From Diphasiastrum complanatum (lineage: Eukaryota; Streptophyta; Lycopodiopsida; Lycopodiales; Lycopodiaceae), in the NCBI GenBank assembly GCA_029204225.1, contig CM055097.1, positions 3,182,620 to 3,246,619 of the forward strand: 64,000 nt of DNA, in the 5' to 3' direction. The position numbers and the translations under genes were made by a program. The notes beneath the pieces were generated by a model. That model ran no database searches and was not told the DNA's origin. It saw only the letters and a list, made by a program, of their open reading frames with translations. Positions 568-62,971 of this stretch are shown piece by piece (position 1 is the first letter of the stretch; each line of letters begins with the position of its first letter).

Positions 568-1228
568 ATGGCGTGGACCAAACAAACAACACAAGGCCAC
601 CCTAGTGGAATACCAATCTCAGGAGCGGGTCAGGAAAATCCACCACCACCACCTCGTCCACCACCACCACCTCCTCCTAGGCCAAGGAGCAGAAGAAGAG
701 ACCCACCCTGGCTAAAGGATATTCGGAAGTTACAAAAGACAAATAATCTTCTGATTCCAAAAGCTCACATACAGAGATCCATCAGACAGGTTACAAGAAG
801 TTTATTAACAGATGTGAGATGGACGGTAACAACAATTGAGGCGTTGCACACTGCATATGAGGATTTTCAGGTGAAATTTTTTTTCAGATACTATTGTTGC
901 AACTATCCATGCCAAGAGGGTGACCATCATGCCCAAGGATTTCAACATTGTGTTCAGGCTTTGGGACACATATGACAAATTTGTAGAATACGTTAGACCC
1001 GCTCACTCCTCTCCTCCAAAACAAGATTCAGAGAGGAGAAAACAAAAGCAATCTCAAGCATCCCGGCTTGTTATTCATATACAAAGCGGGAGTGTTTCAA
1101 AGAAGAGGAGGTCTCTTGACCCTCCAAATAAAGCGAGGGATTTTTCCAAGACATTTCCTGTAGATGAGATTCTTTCTTCGAGGCATTCTCCTCCCAATTT
1201 TCCTCCTAAGTCTCCTTCTCTCTCCTAA
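568..1228 (+). pseudogene. Divergent histone H3 / CENH3-like gene, frameshifted
   Basis: Histone H3 is a core nucleosome protein, and CENH3 is its centromeric form. The ATG at 568 opens with MAWTKQTT, close to the H3 start MARTKQTA. A proline- and arginine-rich tail (residues about 25-44) replaces the lysine-rich H3 tail. A histone fold follows: DIRKLQKTNNLLIPKA, then a DVRW segment. A run of eight T (877-884) then breaks the frame. The next frame carries ATIHAKRVTIMPKDF, the most conserved H3 stretch, and continues to a stop at 1226-1228. NLLIP and the Trp after the loop resemble plant CENH3, but loop 1 has canonical H3 length, without the usual CENH3 insertion. The coding part has no introns although plant CENH3 genes are intron-rich, which suggests a retrocopy. 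The C-terminus is about 75 residues longer than in H3. Seven T instead of eight would keep the frame, so an assembly error is possible. Confidence 0.72.
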
Positions 1229-1541
1229 TAAATCTCCTCCTAAATCTCCTCCTCCTACCCCCATAAATATTGGTTCCCCTCCACCTGTTCTAGGAAATGA
1301 TTTAGATGATTTTGTTAATGTAAATGTAGAATCAATTTTGAATGACAATTCTTTTTCTGGTTTATTTGTATTACTTCCGTCACCCCCTGCCCTTGCCTTT
1401 GTAAATACTCCTCAATATGTACAGTATGACCAATTGTTAAACACGTATCTTAAAGCTTTAGGTCCTCGATACAGTTTTAGGATGCCGAAGACCAATGCTG
1501 GTCTCCCCCTTTCTAGTTTAGATACAGGTGAATTAGTTTAG
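1164..1541 (+). other. Proline/serine-rich open frame, possible tail of H3-like gene
   Basis: This frame overlaps the end of the histone-like frame. It begins with a hydrophobic stretch and then a run of repeated SPP/KSPP units, followed by an acidic LGNDLDDFVNVNVESILND segment and a plain hydrophobic C-terminus. The KSPP repeats also end the previous frame (HSPPNFPPKSP), so a second frameshift may divide one longer protein. I recognise no domain. It could equally be an unrelated low-complexity frame created by the CCTCCT-rich DNA at 1190-1265. Confidence 0.3.
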
Positions 1542-2175
1542 GTGACAATGTAGGAGGTGGGGCCATTTAGTACTAGATGGAATTTTTCCAGACCCCATTG
1601 TTTATAGATGTAGCATTGTTTCCCCTTCAATTCATGGCTGCATTTCATTTCCCTGATTTCAAAAGTCTGCACGATGATATGCTCTAACACGTTGCTTTTG
1701 TAGATTGGATCTTTTGTAGATCAAAACACTAAATAGGTCAATATACTTGTTCAATTCTGATTTTTGAATTCACATACTGGATTTGGCCGATTTTTGGATC
1801 ATTGGTTCAGCCTAAGTGGTGGCTTATAGATTGCATATCAAATTTTAAGCATTTGCATGTAGATTTGGAATAGTCATTTTTTTGTGATTTTGTCAAAACC
1901 CTAATTTTGATTGGATCTCTAGATAGTGAGGTTGTTGGACCTCATTTGAGTGTGTTTCAATATTAGGAAGTAGCAAAAGTCATTAGATTGAGGATAGATC
2001 ATAGGTTGATCAAGATTCCATGATTCTATGTGTTGATTTGCTTGGATAAGTGCTAGAAGAGAATTTGTGAGATAGTTTCAAATCTTGGTGATTTCCTTGG
2101 AAAGCATTTGTTGTTGCTCAAAGGAGTGCTTTGTGCATTGAAGCAGGTTGAAAGAGAAGATCAGGTCATTGCTAC
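1542..2175 (+). other. Non-coding leader upstream of copia gag
   Basis: No gene is visible. The segment lies directly upstream of a copia gag start. It should contain the LTR and primer-binding site of that element, but no TGGTATCAGAGC-like PBS or clear LTR end was found. The 5' end of the element is therefore either lost or too diverged to define by eye. Confidence 0.4.
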
Positions 2176-3717
2176 ATGGCAACCTCAATTGGAGTCATGT
2201 TGGAAGCCAATGATAGGCTTACCTCAAGTAACTATTCATTGTGGAAAGTGAGGATGGAGTCATTTCTTGAGATGAATGATGTTTTGGATATCGTTGTAGG
2301 CTTGGAGGAGAGACCAGCAACACAACAAGATCAATTGAGGTATGACAAGAGGGCCAAGAAGGCTCTACACATGATAAAGATGAATTTTACCAATGAACTT
2401 CTCAAGGAAGTTAATAAGTGCACATCATCTTTGGAAGCTTGGAATTCATTGAAGAAGCTTTATGAATCCAAGTCTACTTCTAGAGTGTTGACTCTAAGAA
2501 GACAACTCTTTTCTTGTTTGCAAAAGAATGAAGAAAGTCCAAGTACTTTTGTTTTGAGAATGAAAGCATTGAATGATGAGTTAGCTTGCATAGATGAAAG
2601 CATTAAGGAAGGAGAGCTTATTCAAGTGACTCTTAATGGCTTTTGGATGCTCATGCTAACATTGTTCAGAGTATTGCTATTCAAAAGACTTTGCCAAGTT
2701 TGATGGATCTTCAAGAGATCTTGATCAATGAGGAATATAGGCTTCAAGCAAGAGGTGGATCTACATCGACACTTCAAGAGGATGCTATGTTCACAAAGGA
2801 CAAATTCAAGGGCAAAACCAAAAGCAAGTGGTCTAAAGGGCAAGATCAAGTGGATGCTTCTTCAAGTGGCAAAAAGAAGGATAGATCAAAGTTCAAGTGC
2901 TTCTATTGTGGCATCAAAGGACACTTTGCAAGTGAGTGCTACAAGAAGAAGAGAGATCAAGGAGACAAGCAAGGTAATCTTACTCTTGATGAGAATGGTT
3001 TGGATGTGCAAGATGCAAATGATGATGCTTTTGTGATGTCTTCATGTATGCTTGCTAATGATGGAGATCTAGATCCTTGGTGGATTTTCACACATGACCT
3101 TTCACAAAGAGTACTTCTCTTCTTTGTTGGCATATGGAGATGACAAGAGAGTGATCTACACGACCAATGATGGTGAGTGTGTAATCAAAGGGATTGGCAC
3201 AATTCATATTGCTCTCTCTACAAATAGGAGTGTTCATTTGAAGGATGTCTTGTTTATTCCATCTATTACCAAGAATTTGCTTAGTGTGAGTCAAATGCTA
3301 AGTAAGGGCCTCAAGGTGGAGTTTGATGGAGATGCTTGTTTGATCAAAAGGAACTTGATTGGAAAAGGTAAAAGGCAAGGGAAGTTGTTCAAACTTGATT
3401 CTTGTGTTATTGCTAACCAAGTTGGATGTGTTGCAAGAGAGCAAATTTCTATTCAAGAGGTTTGGCACAAAAGGATTGGACACCTCAACTTCAAGTCATT
3501 GGAGGTAATGGCAAGGAAGAAGGTTGTGATTGGTCTTCCAAATTCCTTAAGTAATTACAAGCATGTATGTGAGTCTTGTGCTTTGTCTAAGTCACATAGA
3601 CTACCTTATACTAGATCTATTTCTAGATCTACAAAGTCTTTTCAACTTGTACATTCGGATATTCATGGATTTACTACAATTAGCAATGGAATAGTCACTT
3701 TAGCCTTCTATCTTTAG
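2176..3717 (+). pseudogene. Truncated Ty1/copia polyprotein (gag, protease remnant, start of integrase)
   Basis: This is retrotransposon polyprotein, read in at least three frames. Gag (2176 to about 2650) has the copia pattern NYSLWKVRMESFL and a later LTLRRQL helix. After a frameshift near 2640 there is an intact CCHC zinc knuckle, CFYCGIKGHFASEC (about 2900-2945). The text then runs DPWWI straight into a histidine-containing segment, and the D-S/T-G protease triad expected at about 3085-3095 is absent. Downstream, in a third frame, come the pre-integrase motif HKRIGHLNFKSLEV and the first catalytic Asp region QLVHSDIHGF (about 3660). Similarity stops at about 3680, so the rest of integrase, RT and RNase H are missing. 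The next LTR element begins 55 bp further on. The copia assignment is firm, and the copy cannot be autonomous. Confidence 0.85.
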
Positions 3718-3772
3718 AATTACCTTTGTCGATCTGGCTTTAAGTAGATTTGGGTCAGATCTATATACAATA

Positions 3773-4404
3773 TGTTGGAAATGGTGAACTCATGCAACCA
3801 TTCCCTGGCACTCCATGAAGACGAAACGAAGGACGAAAGAAAAGTGTTCGTCCTTGTAACGAAAAGACACTTTGGACAGAGAGCACGAACCAAAGGAAAA
3901 CAATTCGATCTGACAGGTGGCAGCTCGACGAGCGTGGAGTCTTGGACTATCACGCTCAGCCGCCAAGGGCCACGTCAACAGGGATAATTTTTAAACTATT
4001 ACTTAGTGACCCCCAAATAGATGATAAAAAGAGAATAAACAAAAACTATTCATAGATATACATAAGTGAGATACAGAAGAGAACATAGGCGTATTCAAGC
4101 ACTATAAGCTATGCATGAAAGTCTGCCAATGAGCAAAACATAGCTGATTTGTGAGAGGACTGACAGGCCGCCAACGAGTGAGACACTGATCAACTCACTC
4201 ATAACAGTAATACAAATTACAATTGCTCTCTTCTCTCGATCTTTTATCATTTGTGTCGTTTGTTTGATAGAATAATTTTGTGTCTATGGTTGCTTAGGAT
4301 CCTGCATTAATTTCGTAAGCTAGCCTAAGTAGGTAGCAAAACTCAAGTGTAGACAAGATCAGGAGCTCTTCTTGGTGAGATGAAAATAATCATGAACATC
4401 TACA
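3773..4404 (+). mobile_element. 5' LTR of a copia element
   Basis: A 632-bp segment begins TGTTGG and ends CA immediately before a consensus copia primer-binding site, which defines it as a 5' LTR. The five bases before it are CAATA, the expected position of a target-site duplication, but the 3' end of this element is not in the window so this cannot be confirmed. No second copy of this LTR was noticed. Confidence 0.7.
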
Positions 4405-8969: not shown

Positions 8970-10254
8970 TTGAGGGCTCGACGCGAGGCTCGTAGCTCCT
9001 CCCGATTGGTTGAGTACACATCATCGACCGAGGAGATTCAGTCCACTCCTTGTGTAGACCAGTCACATGTTTCCCTATATAGAAGCTCTTGGAAAGGCAA
9101 GATAATGGATTTTAAAGTATCACCTGCCGGTCAATCTATCACGGAAGTTTTAGTTCATCATGCTTATCTTCACAATGAGCTCAACATTCATGATTTGAAT
9201 CCAAATGATAGAAGAAAATGCAATTGTAAGTTTTCAGATTTAATTTCTTTTAAGGTTAGCATTTTCTTTAAATTATATTTTTCTTGTGATATTTTTGTTG
9301 GTTTTGCAGATTTGTATCCATCAAATTCCATTGAATGGCAAATAGTTCAATCGATTGCAGGAATAATCGATGTCATACATTCAAGTATCGGTATTTTACG
9401 ATATAAAGGTCGTTCTCCAAAATCACTTTTAGAGTCGGGAGTTTTCTTTTATGATCACATCTATTTTTCTGATTAAAATGGTCTAGTAGGTAGATTAGAG
9501 CCATATCCTCTACCAAATTTTTTGAGTAAGGAATGGATTTCTCCTGATGCAGCAATTTCAAAAAGTTTTTGATCTAGGCTATATATTGATATTCAAAGTA
9601 TATTAAAATGTAGCACTGGATCAAAGAATAATAGATTAAGTTGGTATCTACCTTTTAATATTTTTGTTGATTTTTTTTCCAAATGCAATGTTCGAAGAAC
9701 GAAAACAATGTTTATTTGTAAGGACTTGACTACTAAAATAATCGCCGAGTTGTTGGATGATGGTTGGGATACAAAACAAAATCAACAAGTTGAGTGCAAA
9801 GTATGTTACTCATCCATGACATTTAGATATCACATCGAAAAACAAATGCTCACTTTGCTGCTGTATTATAGAAGATGGATTAAATCCAAAAATGTTTGGA
9901 AGCCACTTGATCAAGATTTTGTTATAAACCCTCAAGAACAACTTCAGATAACAATGAAAAGAAATGACAACATTTTTGCAATGGTTGAGGTTGAGGAAGA
10001 TTGGTGTCTCAATGACATTCAATCAGAACTAGACATGCTGCAATTCGATTTACCTCAGTACTATCAATTTCGATTGAATGGTGTAAAGGTACGTTATGCC
10101 ATGTAAAAATATTTCTTTTTTTCTATTTCTAAGTGAATCAGTTTTATAAAATATATTAACTAAAACAATTTCTCTTGTGCAGGTAAGAGTAAGGCAGAAA
10201 GGCCATATAAAATGCAAAGATATTGGAACATCCATCGAAATTGAAGATCCATAG
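8970..10254 (+). pseudogene. Unrecognised intron-containing gene with two in-frame stops
   Basis: I do not recognise this protein. A single reading frame runs through three inferred exons: about 8970-9225, 9310-10088 and 10183-10254. Intron 1 is 84 bp (GTAAGT...TTTTGCAG) and intron 2 is 94 bp (GTACGT...CTTGTGCAG). Joining them keeps the frame up to a stop at 10252-10254. Two stops interrupt the middle exon: TAA at 9474-9476 and TGA at 9570-9572. Each is one C-to-T change from a sense codon (CAA, CGA), as expected of decay of methylated DNA. The protein would be about 365 residues, with no signal peptide or membrane segment seen. Its last third has a compact acidic/hydrophobic pattern, VEVEEDWCLNDIQSELDML and then FRLNGVKV. 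The true start may lie further upstream. The spliced structure argues for a former host gene or an intron-bearing DNA transposon gene rather than a retroelement. Confidence 0.5.
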
Positions 10255-10364
10255 ATTATGAACTATGGAATTTTGTATTATATGTAATACAATTTTTTGT
10301 ATACATCATCTTTGAAAATATATGAACCACTTTTTCTATAAGGCTCTTTCATTTCTATGAACTT

Positions 10365-10495
10365 TGTTTTCATGGTGCAAAACACAATGTAATTGCAATT
10401 GGATAAAATGAGTTCTCGATAACAAGATTCATTGTCTCCTGTAGGAAATGCATTATCTCCATTGGGGAGATCTTCATTCACTTGAATTCTAGTAA
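10365..10495 (-). pseudogene. Duplicate of the last exon of the C48-like gene
   Basis: Read on the minus strand this segment gives SPMEIMHFLQETMNLVIENS. It aligns with FPMEIMHFRKETIKLVIKNS in the exon at 10983-11112. An in-frame stop occurs early (FK stop MK). The duplicate lies about 600 bp downstream of the original exon, on the far side of a foldback element. It is a partial, non-functional copy. Confidence 0.6.
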
Positions 10496-10555
10496 CCACT
10501 ACAATCAGATATCGAATCGACGCTTGCCCTTGTTGAAGTCTCATATATATCGGTT

Positions 10556-10790
10556 GTATTTTTTGTTTTCATTGCCTTGGTCTGTATTGTCCTTGTCTTG
10601 GCATATTTGGATATGTTCAGATGATGATCTGATCAAAGCTTTGCTGCAACAAATCTAAATGAACTAATGTCGCATGTTTGGATTGGTTGTGACAAAGGTT
10701 CGATCAGATCATCATTCAGAACTTATCCAAAAAAAACCATGGTAAAGACAAGGCAGACCAAGGCTATGAAAAACAAACATGTCGAAATAC
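10556..10790. mobile_element. Foldback (MITE-like) element, about 235 bp
   Basis: The left arm, about 10561-10660, pairs imperfectly with the right arm, about 10672-10777. Shared blocks include GCCTTGGTCTG and ATGATGATCTGATC, read inward from each side. Almost the whole segment can fold into one hairpin, as in foldback MITEs. No coding capacity and no clear target-site duplication were seen. It lies between the two copies of the C48-like last exon, so it may have inserted there or taken part in the duplication. Confidence 0.6.
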
Positions 10791-11619
10791 CGTAGAAATT
10801 GAAGATGAATGAATCATAACCTCATTTGATAAGAGAAAAAAAAAAAAACAAGTAAGAACAACCATAGAAAAACTATAAATATATTTCTATTAAAATTTTT
10901 TGTACATGTGTCTCATCCACATCAAGTGAGACGAATATTTAATCAGTATCGACTATCTATGATCTCTTAATCCATTTCTCCAGTTGGAAGTAGCTTGGGT
11001 GGAGAACACTCGGCCACTGCAACTGGATATGAATTTTTGATCACAAGCTTTATGGTCTCCTTCCTGAAGTGCATTATCTCCATTGGGAAGACCTTCGGGC
11101 ATTTAAACTGAAAAAAAAAAAACATAAACACAGTTAAATGTAATTAATCAAAGATCAATTAATAGAAATTTGAATATAAAAAAAACAAAAACACAGGTAA
11201 AAGTTATTAATCGAAGATTACCTCTTCCAGATTTGGAAGTCCATCTTGTAGAGCAAGCCAATTAAAAAAGTGTTTGGCATTGCATACAGTATACCAACCA
11301 CAACTAACAGAATCAACTTGCTGGGAGGGTTGCAGAATCCAAATTTTAACATTATGAGATATCGGATCAACGCGCAGGATGTTATAATTAAATCGACAAC
11401 GGACACAAGCGCGCGTCGAATCGATATCCAAAAAATATTGTTTTAATATTGGATCAACGTGCACGTTATGAAAAGAAATCAAACAATAACTACAAGGGCG
11501 CATCAAACCGATATTGATAAATTTTTACCTCTACATCAACAATTTTTAGTTTCGTATATGCTTTTGTATTTGGTATTGGAAAGGATTCCAATATTTTCTG
11601 GATATGGCTCTTGGCAATT

Positions 11620-19289: not shown

Positions 19290-20069
19290 TCAAAAGAGGA
19301 GAATCACTATAATGGCAAAACAGCCAAGAAACAGAAAGAGCCTTGAGACAATAATTTCGTGATGGTAGCCAATCGCTGGTAAAGCAGCAACGAGATTGAA
19401 AGGCAGTGGCAGGTGGACATGGCTAAGAGTATTCGGGAACCCAAGATGAAATCCTGGATCTTCGCTAAGGGTATCTGCAGTGTCAGGAAATTCATGCAAG
19501 TGAAGGCCAAATAGAGCTGGGAAAAGACCTATCCCAGCAGAAAGCATGATATGTCCAAATCTGGCTCTCGTAGGAACAATTGCTCTCCTGGACCCAATGA
19601 ACTCACGGTGCTCATAGTGTTCTATACGATGACGTACCCTCATCCGCCGCCCCTGTGGCCTGCGAGGAATCTCAAGAAAGCCCTTGAGGTTCTCATCCTT
19701 AGCAACCACCCTACCCCGGCCATAAAGCGGTATGACATGGTGCTCTTCAACCCAGGATTTGCACACAGGGCAATCCTGGCCGAGAGAATGGACATTGATC
19801 CATCTATAGAGACATGGCCAGCAGAAAAGGTGGCCACATAGGGTGACAACGGGATCTCGAGCAAGCTCTAAACAGATGTTACAATCAAAATCCCCAGATC
19901 TATTACTCCATTCAGAAGCCGAGCCATCTCCAGCAGCATGAAACTGAGAATCTTTATCAACTTGCTGCTTCCCATCCTCCTCCTCATCAGGAGGGGTGGC
20001 TGCCCCAGCAGGAATCTCTTCTGGATCATTTTGCCCACGTACTGGTCTGCTCTCGGCTGCTGCTGGCAT
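19290..20069 (-). CDS. RMA-type membrane-anchored RING E3 ubiquitin ligase
   Basis: The product is predicted to transfer ubiquitin from an E2 to membrane or ER proteins. It resembles plant RMA1-3 and animal RNF5/RNF185, which act in ER-associated degradation. It is 259 aa, uninterrupted, with ATG at 20069 and TGA at 19292-19290. Residues 1-60 are acidic and disordered. A C3HC4 RING follows with Cys63, Cys66, Cys78, His80, Cys83, Cys86, Cys100 and Cys103, all ligands present. The family-typical WVEEHHVIPLYGRGR segment comes next, then an arginine-rich linker. A C-terminal hydrophobic tail of about 17 residues (242-259) ends at the stop, as expected for a tail-anchored protein. The single-exon structure fits plant RMA genes. 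No defect is visible, so this is probably a working gene. Its targets cannot be read from sequence. Confidence 0.93.
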   Translation of the reverse strand: MPAAAESRPVRGQNDPEEIPAGAATPPDEEEDGKQQVDKDSQFHAAGDGSASEWSNRSGDFDCNICLELARDPVVTLCGHLFCWPCLYRWINVHSLGQDCPVCKSWVEEHHVIPLYGRGRVVAKDENLKGFLEIPRRPQGRRMRVRHRIEHYEHREFIGSRRAIVPTRARFGHIMLSAGIGLFPALFGLHLHEFPDTADTLSEDPGFHLGFPNTLSHVHLPLPFNLVAALPAIGYHHEIIVSRLFLFLGCFAIIVILLF

Positions 20070-20639
20070 GCCCGCTTCTTTCCTTAGGCTACGATCATAC
20101 CGCTGCCGGCATAGCCAGATGTTAATTCCTTTTCCTCTCCTCCTATATTTCCTTTCTTCCCTTCTCCCTTCCCCCTTCCCAGCCCTGGGACACGCTCAAC
20201 GGTCGAGCCTAGAGAAACGCCTAGTACCCCTTGGTGTTGCCACGTAGGCACGAGTCTAACCGGAAAGGGGGGGGGGATTTGTTTAGTTGGTACACTTAAA
20301 AGCCATGGTATAAAATTGAGGTGTCATAGGTTTTGGGCAAGTCTAAGAGGTTACCTTGATATGAGGATGAATCAACCGAGAGTTCCCTCCCCAAACTAAG
20401 TAAGGGTTGCCTAGATCTTACTTGAAGCTTCCTACTCTCCTTGGTCCTCAACACAATTTGGAGTTGATCTAAACATAGTATGCTATGCTTCCACTATGGC
20501 ATCACGTTGAACAAGATTAAAAAACACCTCTCCTAATTCATTCAACACCGCTTGAACTAATCTATTATTCGTAATAGAGTCCCCAATGGGGTTGGCTCTA
20601 GTAGTTGGCTTGGCATTCAAAGTTTCCTTGGTCCCAAGG
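20070..20639. other. Upstream region of RING gene
   Basis: About 200 bp directly upstream of the RING ATG (on the minus strand) is GC-rich and purine-rich, consistent with a 5' UTR and promoter. No clear TATA box is seen, so a TATA-less promoter is possible. A run of G lies near 20268-20277. Beyond 20300 no feature is recognised. Confidence 0.4.
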
Positions 20640-31556: not shown

Positions 31557-33936
31557 ATGATCGGATCTGTGAGATGGAGGATGCTCAGAGGGAAGCTGGA
31601 ATTACGAAAAAGGAACCTTGTTTCTCGGTTTCTTGCTCTAACACCTGGTAAGATCATCCTTCTGTCTCTCACTCAAGTGTAGGTTTCTACAGGCAGTGGA
31701 TTTCTTTTAGGGCTCTTTAATCTTTGTAGATTTTGATAGATTGTGCCCATTCAAAGCAGGATCGCAATTGGGTTGTTTCCAAAATCACAATCCCAGAAGT
31801 GTAGGTGAATTTAGAATCTGCAGCATTGCTAATGGGCGATATCTGATCAACAAGAAGCTAAGCAAAGACATAAAGGATCCTCCCAGTCGGTTCAGCCTTG
31901 GCACACTTACAGCCCAGTATGCAGATCTCCTGCAGGGTTGTGCAGACAGAAGGGATGTGGCTGAGGGTAAGGCAGTCCATGCAGACATTATCAGGGTGGG
32001 TTTGGAGTCGAACAGATTCTTAGCCAACCATCTTGTCCATATGTATGGAAAATGTGGGAGTTTACAAGATGCACGAGCAGTGTTTGATAGCATCTGTGAT
32101 CCAAACGTTTATTCGTGGACCTCAATGATTGGAGCATATGCTCATCATGGGTATGGGAATGAAGCTTTGAATCTGTTCAGGCAAATGCAGAATGCATGTG
32201 TGCGGCCGGATAAGGTAACCCTAGTTACTGCTCTTAATGCGTGCTGCAATCAGGAAGCCAAAAAGGAAGGTGTGCTAATCCACTCTCAGGTTATGGAGAG
32301 TGGTTTGGAGTCGGATATAGTTGTGGCTTGCGGGCTTCTGAACATGTATCGTAGATGTGGAAGCCTTGAGGATGTTTGGGGAATATTCACCAAAATGCAT
32401 GAACGCGATGTAATTGTTTGGAATGTTATGATTGCAGCGTGCATCGAACATGAGCATAGCAAGCAGGCCGTGCAGCTCTTTGGGCAGATGCAGCTAGAAG
32501 GCACAATTCCAAACCAAATTACCTTCATCGGTATTCTTGGTACGTTTTCAGCTCCTGATGATGTAGCAGAGGGTGCACTATTACATGCTCACATTGCGAA
32601 AGCAGGTTATGAAGAGGATGTTTTTGTGGGGACTGCACTTGTGAATATGTATGGCAAGTGCGGAAGTTTAGAGGATTCTCGATATGTCTTTGATAGAATG
32701 CCAGAAAAGAATGTGGTTTCCTGGAATGCAATGTTGTCTGTCTATGCGCAATCTGGGAATGACAGAGAGGTTCTTCATCTTTTTGAACAAATGCAAAAGG
32801 ACATGAAACCAGACAAGGTTACTTTTCTGAATGTTCTTGATGCCTACGGCAATCTATCAGCCTTACGATATGGCAAGCACATCCATTCTCTCATTGAAGC
32901 TGGTAAATTACAAACAGATCTTACCATAGGAAATGCTCTTATTAGTATGTATGCAAAATGTGGAAGCGTGGAAAATGCTCGCAAGGTATTTGATAGCATG
33001 ATTGAGCGAGATGTGATCAGCTGGAATACCATGATAGCAGCTTATGGCCAGCATGGCTATGGGGAAGAAGCACTTCAACTTTTTCGTTCTATGCAGAAAA
33101 GCCATGTGCTTCCCAGTAAAATTACTTTCGTTAACATTCTCTCGGCATGCAGTCATGCAGGTTTGTTAGATGAGGGGCATAAAATTTTTTCTTCCATGAG
33201 TGCAGATTATGGCCTTCCACCTGCATTGGAGCATTATGGTTGCATGGTCGACTTGCTTGGACGATTAGGCCAATTAGATGAAGCAGAGAATATTTTAAAA
33301 CAAATGCCCTTTCCAGCTGATTCTCTTGTATACATGACCTTGCTTGGCGCATGCAGATTGCATGGAGATGTCGAGCGAGGTAAACGAGTTGCAGAGCACC
33401 TTTTTCAGATTGATGCTCGTAAATCTGCTCCATATGTGGTGTTATCAAACATATATGCTGCAACTGGCAGATGGGATGATGTATACAGGGTCAGACAGAA
33501 AATGATTGACAGGGGTGTGAAGAAGGAACCAGGATGCAGCTCCATTGTGGTCAAGAATAGAGTTCATGACTTCGTTGTAGGCAAGAGTTCCCATCCTAGA
33601 TTTAGGGATATATTTGTTGAGCTTGAGACCCTGACTAGGAAGATGAAGCGGTTAGGATATGTGCCTGATACACAGTTAGTACTTCACGATATAGAAGGTG
33701 AACAAAAGGAACACCTTCTTAGCCATCATAGTGAAAAACTGGCTGTCACCTTTGGAATCATTAACACACCTCCTCAAACTCCCATCCAAGTTGTCAAAAA
33801 CCTTAGAGTCTGTGAAGACTGTCATAATGCTGTTAAATTCATTTCTGTGATAACTCGACGAGAAATTGTGCTTAGAGATACTCATCGCTTTCATCGTTTT
33901 AAAGATGGCATGTGTTCTTGTGGAAACTTTTGGTAA
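31557..33936 (+). CDS. PLS-class PPR protein with DYW deaminase domain (predicted two exons)
   Basis: The product is predicted to bind a specific organelle RNA and convert C to U. The long open frame has no usable upstream ATG, since the first in-frame Met is at 32041, inside a repeat. I infer exon 1 as 31557-31647 (donor GTAAGA), a 112-bp intron ending AAAGCAG, and exon 2 as 31760-33936. The join is phase 1, keeps the frame and gives 755 aa. Exon 1 encodes an Arg-rich, acid-free-like leader (RWRMLRGKLELRKRNLVSRF), as expected for a mitochondrial or plastid transit peptide. PPR motifs fill residues of about 80-600, with MYGKCGSLEDAR-type units. The E domain and then DYW follow. The HSE deaminase motif is at about 687-689, CEDC zinc ligands at 715-718, and CSC near the end. 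The protein ends GNFW rather than GDYW. No stop interrupts it, so it is probably functional. The RNA target is unknown. Confidence 0.88.
31648..31759 (+). other. Predicted intron of the PPR gene
   Basis: Donor CTG|GTAAGAT and acceptor AAAGCAG|G delimit 112 bp. Removing it joins a phase-1 codon and links a basic leader peptide to the PPR frame. There is a stop in the PPR frame at 31708-31710, so read-through without splicing could not supply an ATG. An alternative acceptor at TTCTACAG (31692) would not keep the frame. Confidence 0.65.
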
Positions 33937-61564: not shown

Positions 61565-62813
61565 TCAGAGTTCTAGAACTTTGTAGAATTCTAAAACAGA
61601 CATGGAATCAATAGTGCAGATCACTTTAATCCCTGCAAACCCAGCAGCAAGGGCCAGATCCTTGAATTCTTCCTCGGTGCGCTCCTTTCCACCTTGATTG
61701 TAGGCCAGCATGAGCAGATCTACGCTGTAGCCAACTTTGGCAGCAAGACTATGATCTACTGTAGCAGGCAACACAGCGTCTACCACAATCACTTTGCCGG
61801 CGTCGGGAACAGACTTGTAGCAATTTTTGAGGATTGTGAGGCAGTGATCATCGCTCCAATCGTGCAAGATCCACTGCAAAAACCCGCAAGTAGTCAATCT
61901 CCACAGTACCAAAAAGTCCAGGGGAAAAGGATTCGATAAAAGGACTAGCTCAAATGCTTTATAGAAAAAAAAGCTTTAGTACCTTCATGAAGATGGCTTC
62001 TCCTGAAGGCACGCTTTCAAACATGTTCCCACCAACGTGCTCTACACCAGGATATTGTGGGGCAAGAGCCACAACATGAGGCTGATCGAAATTTATCCCT
62101 TGAATGTGGGGATATTTCGACACAATCATGTTGAGCGATGATCCGAATCCTCCCCCTACATCAACCAGTTTGCTGATGTTCTTAAAGCCATCATATGCAT
62201 CAAGGGTAGCTTTCATGAAGAGTGTTGAGTGGCTTCCCATGGCGGTGTTGAAGAGCTTGTCCAAGCGAGGATCTTCTGTCCCCAGCTGGAATGCATTCTT
62301 GCCATGAGCTTTGAAGAAAGGCTCTCCTCCATCCAGCACTGCCTCAGGAAGGTACTGCCATGAGGCCATGAACACTTTATCCTGGTTCATCACAACCAGA
62401 GGTGCCAATGACATGCCCATCTCATCCTTGATTAGATACTTGCAAAGAGGAGTGAGTCCATATCTGCTCTCTTTCTTACCATCTACCTCCACAATTGTGT
62501 CACTGAGAATTTCTCTGGATGCAAGAAGCTTAAGGATGCGGTCAAGGTAGACAGCAGATTTGGTCGTAGTGGTAGGAATGTGAGCAACAATGTCTTTTGC
62601 AGAGATGGGTTCAGTAGGGCTCACTTTGTTGATGATCTCAAACACATCCAGAATAATGGCTGCTCTGAGAGCCATGGGAACTGTGCTCAAAGTGCCCAGC
62701 TCCAATACCTTCATTCTCTCCAAGTTCTGTACCTTGGTGGGCTCTGCTTCTTTCTCTTCCACCTTGGAAGCTGCCCCATTCTCTTCCACCAGTCCAATCT
62801 TGTCAGAACCCAT
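61565..62813 (-). CDS. Plant class II O-methyltransferase (COMT/flavonoid OMT-like), two exons
   Basis: The product is predicted to transfer a methyl group from S-adenosylmethionine to a phenolic hydroxyl in the cytosol. Exon 1 is 62813-61983 and exon 2 is 61873-61565. They are joined across a 109-bp intron (GTACTA...TTTGCAG) at FMK|WILHDW, the intron site usual for COMT genes. The protein is 379 aa, slightly longer than typical COMT because of a charged N-terminal extension (about 1-30). A dimerisation domain lies at about 30-130. SAM motif LVDVGGGFG is at 216-224, with NFDQPHVV after it. The catalytic base is His281 (HDWSDDHC), with Glu341 (GGKE). The second catalytic acid is Asp309 (VVDAVLP), where lignin COMT has Glu and chalcone/isoflavone OMTs have Asp. 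The overall sequence is still COMT-like. Exact substrate is open: phenylpropanoid or flavonoid. No defect is visible. Confidence 0.92.
61874..61982 (-). other. Intron of O-methyltransferase gene
   Basis: 109 bp, phase 0, with GT at the minus-strand 5' end and a pyrimidine-rich TTTTTGCAG acceptor. Position between FMK and WILHDW is conserved in the family. Confidence 0.88.
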
Positions 62814-62971
62814 CTCTCCTCGCCCTTTTCCTCTCTATCTGTGAAATTATTTTGTGCTTCGAAGTTCCTCTGCAGCCTTCCGAAAAAAGTCGCTCTCTTT
62901 CTCTCTGATAACAGAGATGGAGCACAAAAGAAAACGTGAGCTGCTGTGAGACTCGAAGAAGAGAAGCGCGA

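Follow-up and report, generated by a model that had tools for sequence, protein, structure and literature searches.

Near the left end of a 64,000-nucleotide stretch of Diphasiastrum complanatum DNA (the window; C6:3182620-3246619) lies an open reading frame that joins an H3-like core and a few CENH3-like residues to a proline-rich tail. The question is whether this frame is a host histone gene, a damaged copy of one or something else. A reading made from the letters of the window (the sequence-only reading) had proposed either a retrocopied divergent H3 variant or a live variant interrupted by an assembly error. Comparison with the rest of the genome (1.74 Gb, 5,176 contigs) indicates that the frame almost certainly belongs to a transposon gene, of which it appears to be a decayed, 3'-truncated and dead copy.

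The frame that begins at position 568 reads MAWTKQTTQGHPSG... (opening MAWTKQTT), passes through a proline/arginine run and continues as WLKDIRKLQKTNNLLIPKAHIQR... up to a T run at 877-884, and a second frame from 887 reads DTIVATIHAKRVTIMPKDFNIVF... / DTIVATIHAKRVTIMPKDFN. The Pfam Histone model matched the first piece (568-882) above its cut-off (E=3e-10, 40.9 bits) and the second (887-1225) below it (E=2.4e-4, 21.8 bits, cut-off 26.4), and the piece 568-885 matched PDB chains of H3.3, H3.2 and CENP-A-type histones (phmmer; best E=5e-8). This similarity to histones is far beyond chance. The H3-like ORF is thus real, and so are the proline-rich tail, the LLIP motif, the loop-1 tryptophan and the H3-like loop-1 length that had been pointed out in it.

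Three frame breaks separate the window copy from its sister copies elsewhere in the genome. At the first, the T run, the window copy has eight T; two of the three aligned sister copies differ there and are not open as read, while the third (L052) is open through. At the second, near 1218, 44 bp present in all three aligned sister copies are missing, and at the third, near 1536, 16 bp are missing in the window copy and also in L050; both losses break the frame. The sequence-only reading was therefore right about a frameshift in the T run, although this is not the sole break. Because the length of the run differs among repeat copies, the frameshift can be copy variation, and an assembly error is not needed to explain it. 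The C-terminal extension that had been described is also present, but it is made up of a linker and the first part of a protease domain: aligned with the corresponding extension of a related family (family B, below), it scored 71 against 33.8 +/- 5.3 for shuffles (0 of 300) in one of three frames. The window copy ends at 1692, upstream of the catalytic exons (Table 1).

Table 1. Transposon-related features of the window, in window coordinates
Feature	Position	Strand	Basis
Family-C transposon segment	380..1692	+	Sister-copy similarity begins at query start 380 and ends at 1692-1694
Decayed exon 1 of putative b-type gene	568..1541	+	N-tail, H3 fold, basic/proline linker, start of Ulp1/C48 region
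H3 histone-fold domain, in two frames	709..982	+	tblastn matches at W 10329-10602; Pfam Histone
T run, first frame break, differs between copies	877..884	+	Sister-copy alignment
Frame MEFFQTPLFIDVALFPLQFMAAF..., start of C48 region per sister copies; window copy truncated	1577..1687	+	
Copia-type gag/pol remnants past the truncation point	2176..3717	+	Reading of ORFs
ORF2 relative, opposite to the orientation expected for the element at 568	9078..10091	+	ORF2_B 47% identity, 1.4e-45; ORF2_A 3.6e-34
Relative of cysteine-bearing C48 exon (PQQNxxxxCGWYT)	11246..11338	-	61% over 31 aa, 2e-9

Among the best 40 of 1,729 candidates scored, the window segment matched 39 other places at 81-95% identity, most matches spanning nearly all of the query (1-1313) and some being partial. 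What had been taken for a single retrocopy thus belongs to a transposon-borne gene with at least 40 copies, the window's own included. We call this family C. Its more distant relatives, families A, B and D, emerged from a genome search with the histone model (PF00125; best 150 of 6,325 candidates), which returned 13 matches at 163-165 bits, three short exon matches and some 130 weaker matches at 95-110 bits; the last lie on many contigs, many contain stops, and their frames reach up to 417 aa. Eight of the strongest matches were cut out; the six translated on the correct strand are all canonical H3, and the short exon matches are parts of intron-bearing H3.3-like genes. All 31 of the weaker matches retrieved have an H3-like fold (18 in family A, 10 in B and three in D), and the 20 (14 A, 6 B) for which 9 kb of sequence was retrieved all lie within multi-kilobase repeats. 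Family-D elements were seen in two longer stretches. In an automatic annotation, elements of this kind may be mistaken for histone or CENH3 genes. The members of two pairs, L020/L021 and L012/L023, have the same 25-bp left flank within each pair and probably arose by segmental duplication rather than by transposition.

Elements of families A and B end in inverted repeats (TIRs) of about 35 bp (CATTAG...), which read CATTAGGGCCCTTTTTGGACTCAAAAAGG... in A and CATTAGAGGAGTTCTCAATATCAAAAAGACCC... in B. The repeats are a perfect 35 bp in B19 (element length 8,681 bp), span about 37 bp in A22 (8,955 bp), where two positions mismatch, and are shorter and imperfect in B28 (9,305 bp); for the window's own element we found no convincing TIR. 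With up to three mismatches the family-B TIR occurs 2,417 times in the genome (1,177 + 1,240), a count that takes in any shortened, gene-less elements, and the reversed-pattern control occurs 0 times. A search for target-site duplications of 2-10 bp found none in three of the four elements with two ends, and only a 2-bp match in the fourth. B28 is inserted in a copia-like gag, the frame of which appears from its translation to continue across the site. In the left part of family-A elements (L011:1-9001), several copies have a long CT microsatellite with a Leu-Ser reading immediately inward of their left end.

Besides the H3-like gene, families A and B have in common a transposase-like gene, ORF2 and ORF3, which in family B are ordered transposase (+), ORF3 (-), H3-like (+), ORF2 (-). 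The transposase-like gene has conserved KLDE, EWHLAxDLKTLK (WHLAxDLK) and QGMEKSH blocks in A and B, for which we infer a catalytic role. Its pieces, scanned as single ORFs and as one composite joined by hand, gave no NCBIfam match, no Pfam match above cut-off and no match in a phage collection; in all pieces scanned, nothing besides the histone fold exceeded a Pfam cut-off, and neither hAT nor Mutator was matched, nor RAG1/Transib above the cut-off. The E-motif of the transposase resembles RAG1 near the catalytic Glu, below cut-off in the hand-joined composite (Pfam E=0.032) and with PDB E=0.46-1.2, so that kinship with RAG1 is weakly indicated, a lead only. Structure models were poor for both the transposase (mean pLDDT 44) and ORF2 (mean pLDDT 41); a BAH domain suspected by eye in ORF2 was dropped given this poor model and the lack of Pfam or PDB support. 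The family-D elements D48 and D49, both decayed, each have two H3-like genes, one of a type shared with family A (a-type) and one of a type shared with families B and C (b-type). D49 also has two types of ORF3. From these doubled genes, the H3-like/ORF3 pair seems to have been duplicated. In D49 (1426-3920, reverse complement of L049) the ORF3b region is present as tandem pieces of ~95% identity. Taken together, the repeats and gene content define a group of TIR-bearing, DNA-transposon-like elements predicted to encode one or two H3-like proteins.

The two types of H3-like gene differ in what follows the fold. In the a-type protein (A, D) nothing follows the H3 fold, which in A is preceded by a long low-complexity tail. 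In the b-type gene, the H3-like exon is followed by short open stretches with DHW and PQQNDSFNCGWYT. The b-type gene of B19 can be read as four exons separated by GT-AG introns of 107, 111 and 99 bp, and its spliced product of 470 aa matched both PF00125 (97.3 bits, 1e-27) and PF02902, Peptidase_C48 (42.2 bits, 1.1e-10, cut-off 20.7), as well as PDB structures of Ulp1 (phmmer, E 0.001-0.0015). PF00125 scores were 95-97 bits for L025 and family B. Six of the ten family-B loci were examined for the fusion, the remaining four being too short, and two of the six (B19 and L028) are fully open with the three GT-AG introns. The exons of L016 have 33 bases missing and 123 inserted; those of L026 have 50 missing and 27 inserted, with loss of the cysteine stretch; L018 contains two stops, and its cysteine is changed; and in L027 the 3' part is absent. 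The C48 pieces of D49 scored 20.7 bits, exactly the Pfam cut-off. Those of family C had no Pfam C48 match, and aligned with the family-B C48 region at a score of 147 against a null of 31.5 +/- 5.2 (0 of 500). We consider it highly probable that the b-type genes of B, C and D encode an H3 fold fused to a Ulp1/C48 SUMO-protease domain, with C and D placed here by alignment. The sequence-only reading had called the window gene intronless and had suggested looking for an intron-bearing homologue in the same genome. Exon 1 is indeed without an intron, and homologues with three introns do exist in family B, but these introns interrupt the protease half, further 3', and the homologues are transposon genes.

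B19 and L028 have the C48 residues DHW, NCG/SCG and PQQN, and the Asp position reads KMNS in families B and C. Protease activity is not assured, since the usual Ulp1 Asp is not in place. A fusion of a histone with Ulp1 was not found in the open-access literature on transposon-borne histones, as judged by titles and abstracts.

The N-terminal tails were scanned in 36 rows, and the pattern M-x-x-x-K-Q-T was found in 28, representing 27 distinct genes. Of the eight rows without it, L039, L041-L043 and L047 are in short stretches, and L020, L021 and L024 have none within 1.5 kb. In all 27 tails found, position 9 is not K (it is D, G, E, V, A or T), and the remainder of the tail is unrelated to the canonical H3 tail (K4, K9, K14, K27). 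H3K9 methylation should thus be impossible on these proteins. The apparent retention of K4-Q5-T6 is not independent evidence, because the search pattern demanded K-Q. The tail of the family-C copy L051, MVRTKKTTRGH, has K4, lacks Q5 and is likewise without K9. A-type frames have an in-frame Met upstream of MARTKQT, so that their true start is unsure and the tail may not be N-terminal.

Within the fold, we use H113, R116 and D123 as what we take to be the position names of the H3-fold residues scored in the A, B and D rows. The equivalents of H113 and R116 are kept in 31 of 31 such rows and that of D123 in 29 of 31, which makes pairing with H4 and formation of tetramers plausible for the good copies; the family-C copy L053 has lost the equivalents of both H113 and R116. 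Loop 1 has the H3 length in A, C and D and is one residue longer in B.

In a tree of 21 rows, in which plant CENH3 is represented by presumed sequences, a split with 87/87 support separates the 16 transposon rows from both host H3 and plant CENH3, and the inner support was 91/87 for the a-type and 74/67 for the b-type. This topology is compatible with a single capture. Descent of the transposon proteins from an old CENH3 is possible, the support for the tree being moderate and below the starred level. Like plant CENH3, they combine an H3 fold with LLIP, a loop-1 W (in family C) and a divergent tail. They are unlike it in being multi-copy transposon genes, in the length of loop 1, in a W/F in the TVAL segment at helix N and in the protease fusion of the b-type. 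We rejected the window gene as the host's CENH3, since it is a high-copy repeat with a loop 1 that is not lengthened and stands apart in the tree. Identity with canonical H3.1 or H3.3 was rejected too, given the lack of K9, the unrelated tail and the host H3 and H3.3 genes found separately. The gene encodes, as had been surmised, a divergent H3-fold protein with CENH3-like residues rather than a decayed H3.1/H3.3, and related genes do occur in the genome. The lineage has probably been little studied for chromatin and centromeres.

Selection was measured as dN/dS on the ~87-codon fold, in copies that came from the best Pfam matches, are therefore biased towards intact ones and include the segmental duplicates L012/L023 and L020/L021. 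Here the dN/dS check suggested by the sequence-only reading came out in two ways. Pooled dN/dS was 0.39 in family A (18 copies; bootstrap 0.30-0.55) and 0.22 in family B (10 copies; bootstrap 0.16-0.38), whereas the window's own family C gave 0.75 over five rows and looks old, decaying and close to neutral. Changes common to several copies, which should reflect mobile lineages, had dN/dS of 0.33 (A) and 0.10 (B), and changes private to single copies 0.68 (A) and 0.87 (B). In four family-B copies the pooled values were 0.18 for the fold, 0.60 for the linker and 0.40 for the C48 region. The fold of the two open copies, B19 and L028, which are the closest pair, differs by 12 nonsynonymous and two synonymous changes (dN/dS 1.65; C48 0.52), so that recent change in this pair carries no sign of constraint. 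Overall, these values are signs that selection has acted in the past on a mobile histone-fold gene. The family-C copies L051 and L053 share an in-frame TAG where helix 2 of the fold ends, and some copies of this family may thus have spread after that codon became a stop.

Parts of this anatomy have been published for other transposons. The hAT transposons of Pyrenophora tritici-repentis (PMC3538342) and of relatives of Pseudocercospora fijiensis (PMC6710886) carry H3-like (H3L) genes; according to these reports, the P. tritici-repentis H3L has a tail that departs from H3 and fully matches neither H3 nor CenH3, and the hAT of the P. fijiensis group has an 18-bp TIR and 8-bp target duplications. 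As there, the plant elements place an H3-like gene within a TIR-bearing DNA transposon amplified genome-wide. Unlike them, they have no hAT match in the pieces scanned and no target duplication that we could see, comprise several diverged gene-bearing families with two H3-like types, and have a protease fusion, which goes unmentioned for the fungal H3L in the available text of the two papers. A second parallel is VANDAL-KIU / Kaonashi among eudicot MULEs, in which, as summarised in a review (PMC13317346), VANC is fused to Ulp1: VANC-type proteins counter silencing, the VANDAL system with VANC-Ulp1 (KIU) takes methylation off related elements, and the function of the Ulp1 part is given as unknown. 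Both are plant DNA transposons with an Ulp1 domain on a gene other than the transposase. From what the review describes, however, the partner of Ulp1 in VANDAL-KIU is VANC, a sequence-specific factor, where here it is a histone fold, and VANDAL-KIU are non-TIR MULEs, where the present elements have TIRs and their scanned pieces did not match Mutator. Ginger1 transposons carry Ulp1 or OTU domains (PMC2836005) and so also resemble our elements in having an Ulp1-type protease on a DNA transposon, but there the protease domain is part of an integrase-like transposase, and the text available for Ginger1 makes no mention of a histone. In the sources available to us, then, H3 genes are already published for fungal hAT elements and Ulp1 domains for Mutator, VANDAL-KIU and Ginger elements, and we found no precedent for a histone-protease fusion.

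What might such a gene do? In the explanation that we prefer, the H3-like proteins would pair with host H4 and enter the chromatin of the element or of its transposition complex. Their tails, without K9 and mostly with K4-Q5-T6, would leave no site for H3K9 methylation on them. The b-type protein would carry a deSUMOylase to that chromatin and might strip SUMO off silencing factors or off the transposase. The outcome would be anti-silencing, with the element kept expressible and mobile. This role is suggested by the parallel with the VANC-Ulp1 proteins of VANDAL elements; against it stand the fold dN/dS of the pair B19/L028, the near-neutral family C and KMNS at the Asp site. We lean, by a little, towards the whole statement of a transposon-borne histone-protease gene with an anti-silencing role; for anti-silencing as its main role the chances seem slightly less than even. 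Its furthest-reaching form, in which self-chromatinising transposons replace host H3 with their own K9-less H3 variants, one of them fused to a SUMO protease, and so dismantle SUMO-dependent silencing, is more tentative still.

The main rival keeps the same anatomy and gives it another purpose: the H3-like proteins and the protease would serve transposition, for example by guiding the choice of target through a link between the transposase and K4-methylated or open chromatin, or by deSUMOylating the transposase or repair factors. The K-Q-T kept in most tails found would fit such a role, as would the weakly RAG1-like E-motif and the Ulp1 domains of Ginger1 transposases and Mutator elements, for which a role in transposition has been proposed (PMC2836005). 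The loss of K9 is not explained by this reading itself, and we regard it as rather unlikely. Less probable again, and disfavoured, is a passenger, a host H3 gene taken up and amplified without use. Such a case is on record in P. fijiensis, where hAT elements hold 784 H3 copies, all RIP-inactivated according to the available account (PMC6710886), and the near-neutral family C and the two unconstrained open B copies would suit it. A passenger would, however, hardly combine pooled dN/dS values in A and B that are far under 1, a low proportion of nonsynonymous changes among the common ones, a fold kept across four strongly diverged families and a second, fused enzyme domain. The reading of the frame as retrocopied from a divergent H3 or CENH3 of the host, or as a host variant that is live but misassembled, is scarcely credible: it would account for LLIP and the loop-1 W as in CENH3, for the intronless exon 1 and for a single-base break in the T run, but not for the 39 further places, the TIR-bounded relatives, the 3' introns of family B, the differing T runs and the separation from both H3 and CENH3 in the tree.

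The anti-silencing explanation touches on the question of whether transposons can make chromatin of their own and not only evade or recruit that of the host. If it is true, selfish DNA would here be using a histone, fused to a protease, as a weapon of counter-defence. A natural H3 variant with a K4 site, without K9 and with a SUMO protease would also be a compact tool for work on silencing by SUMO and H3K9 methylation.

The surroundings of the window copy contain further remains of these elements. Remnants of the transposase and ORF3 lie to its left, outside the window (L029:7215-7956 and L029:8252-8632). In families A and B, ORF2 is conserved and adjoins one end of the element. No H3-like gene was found on the minus strand beside the window's ORF2 relative. 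Between 9078 and 11338, this relative (+) and the C48 exon (-) stand in the reverse of the family-B order, and the interval probably holds part of another element, inverted and adjacent to the first. Elsewhere in the window, translations read by eye include a RING-finger-like ORF (19293-20195, -), a PPR-like ORF of 741 aa (31711-33933, +) and an O-methyltransferase-like gene (61568-62834, -).
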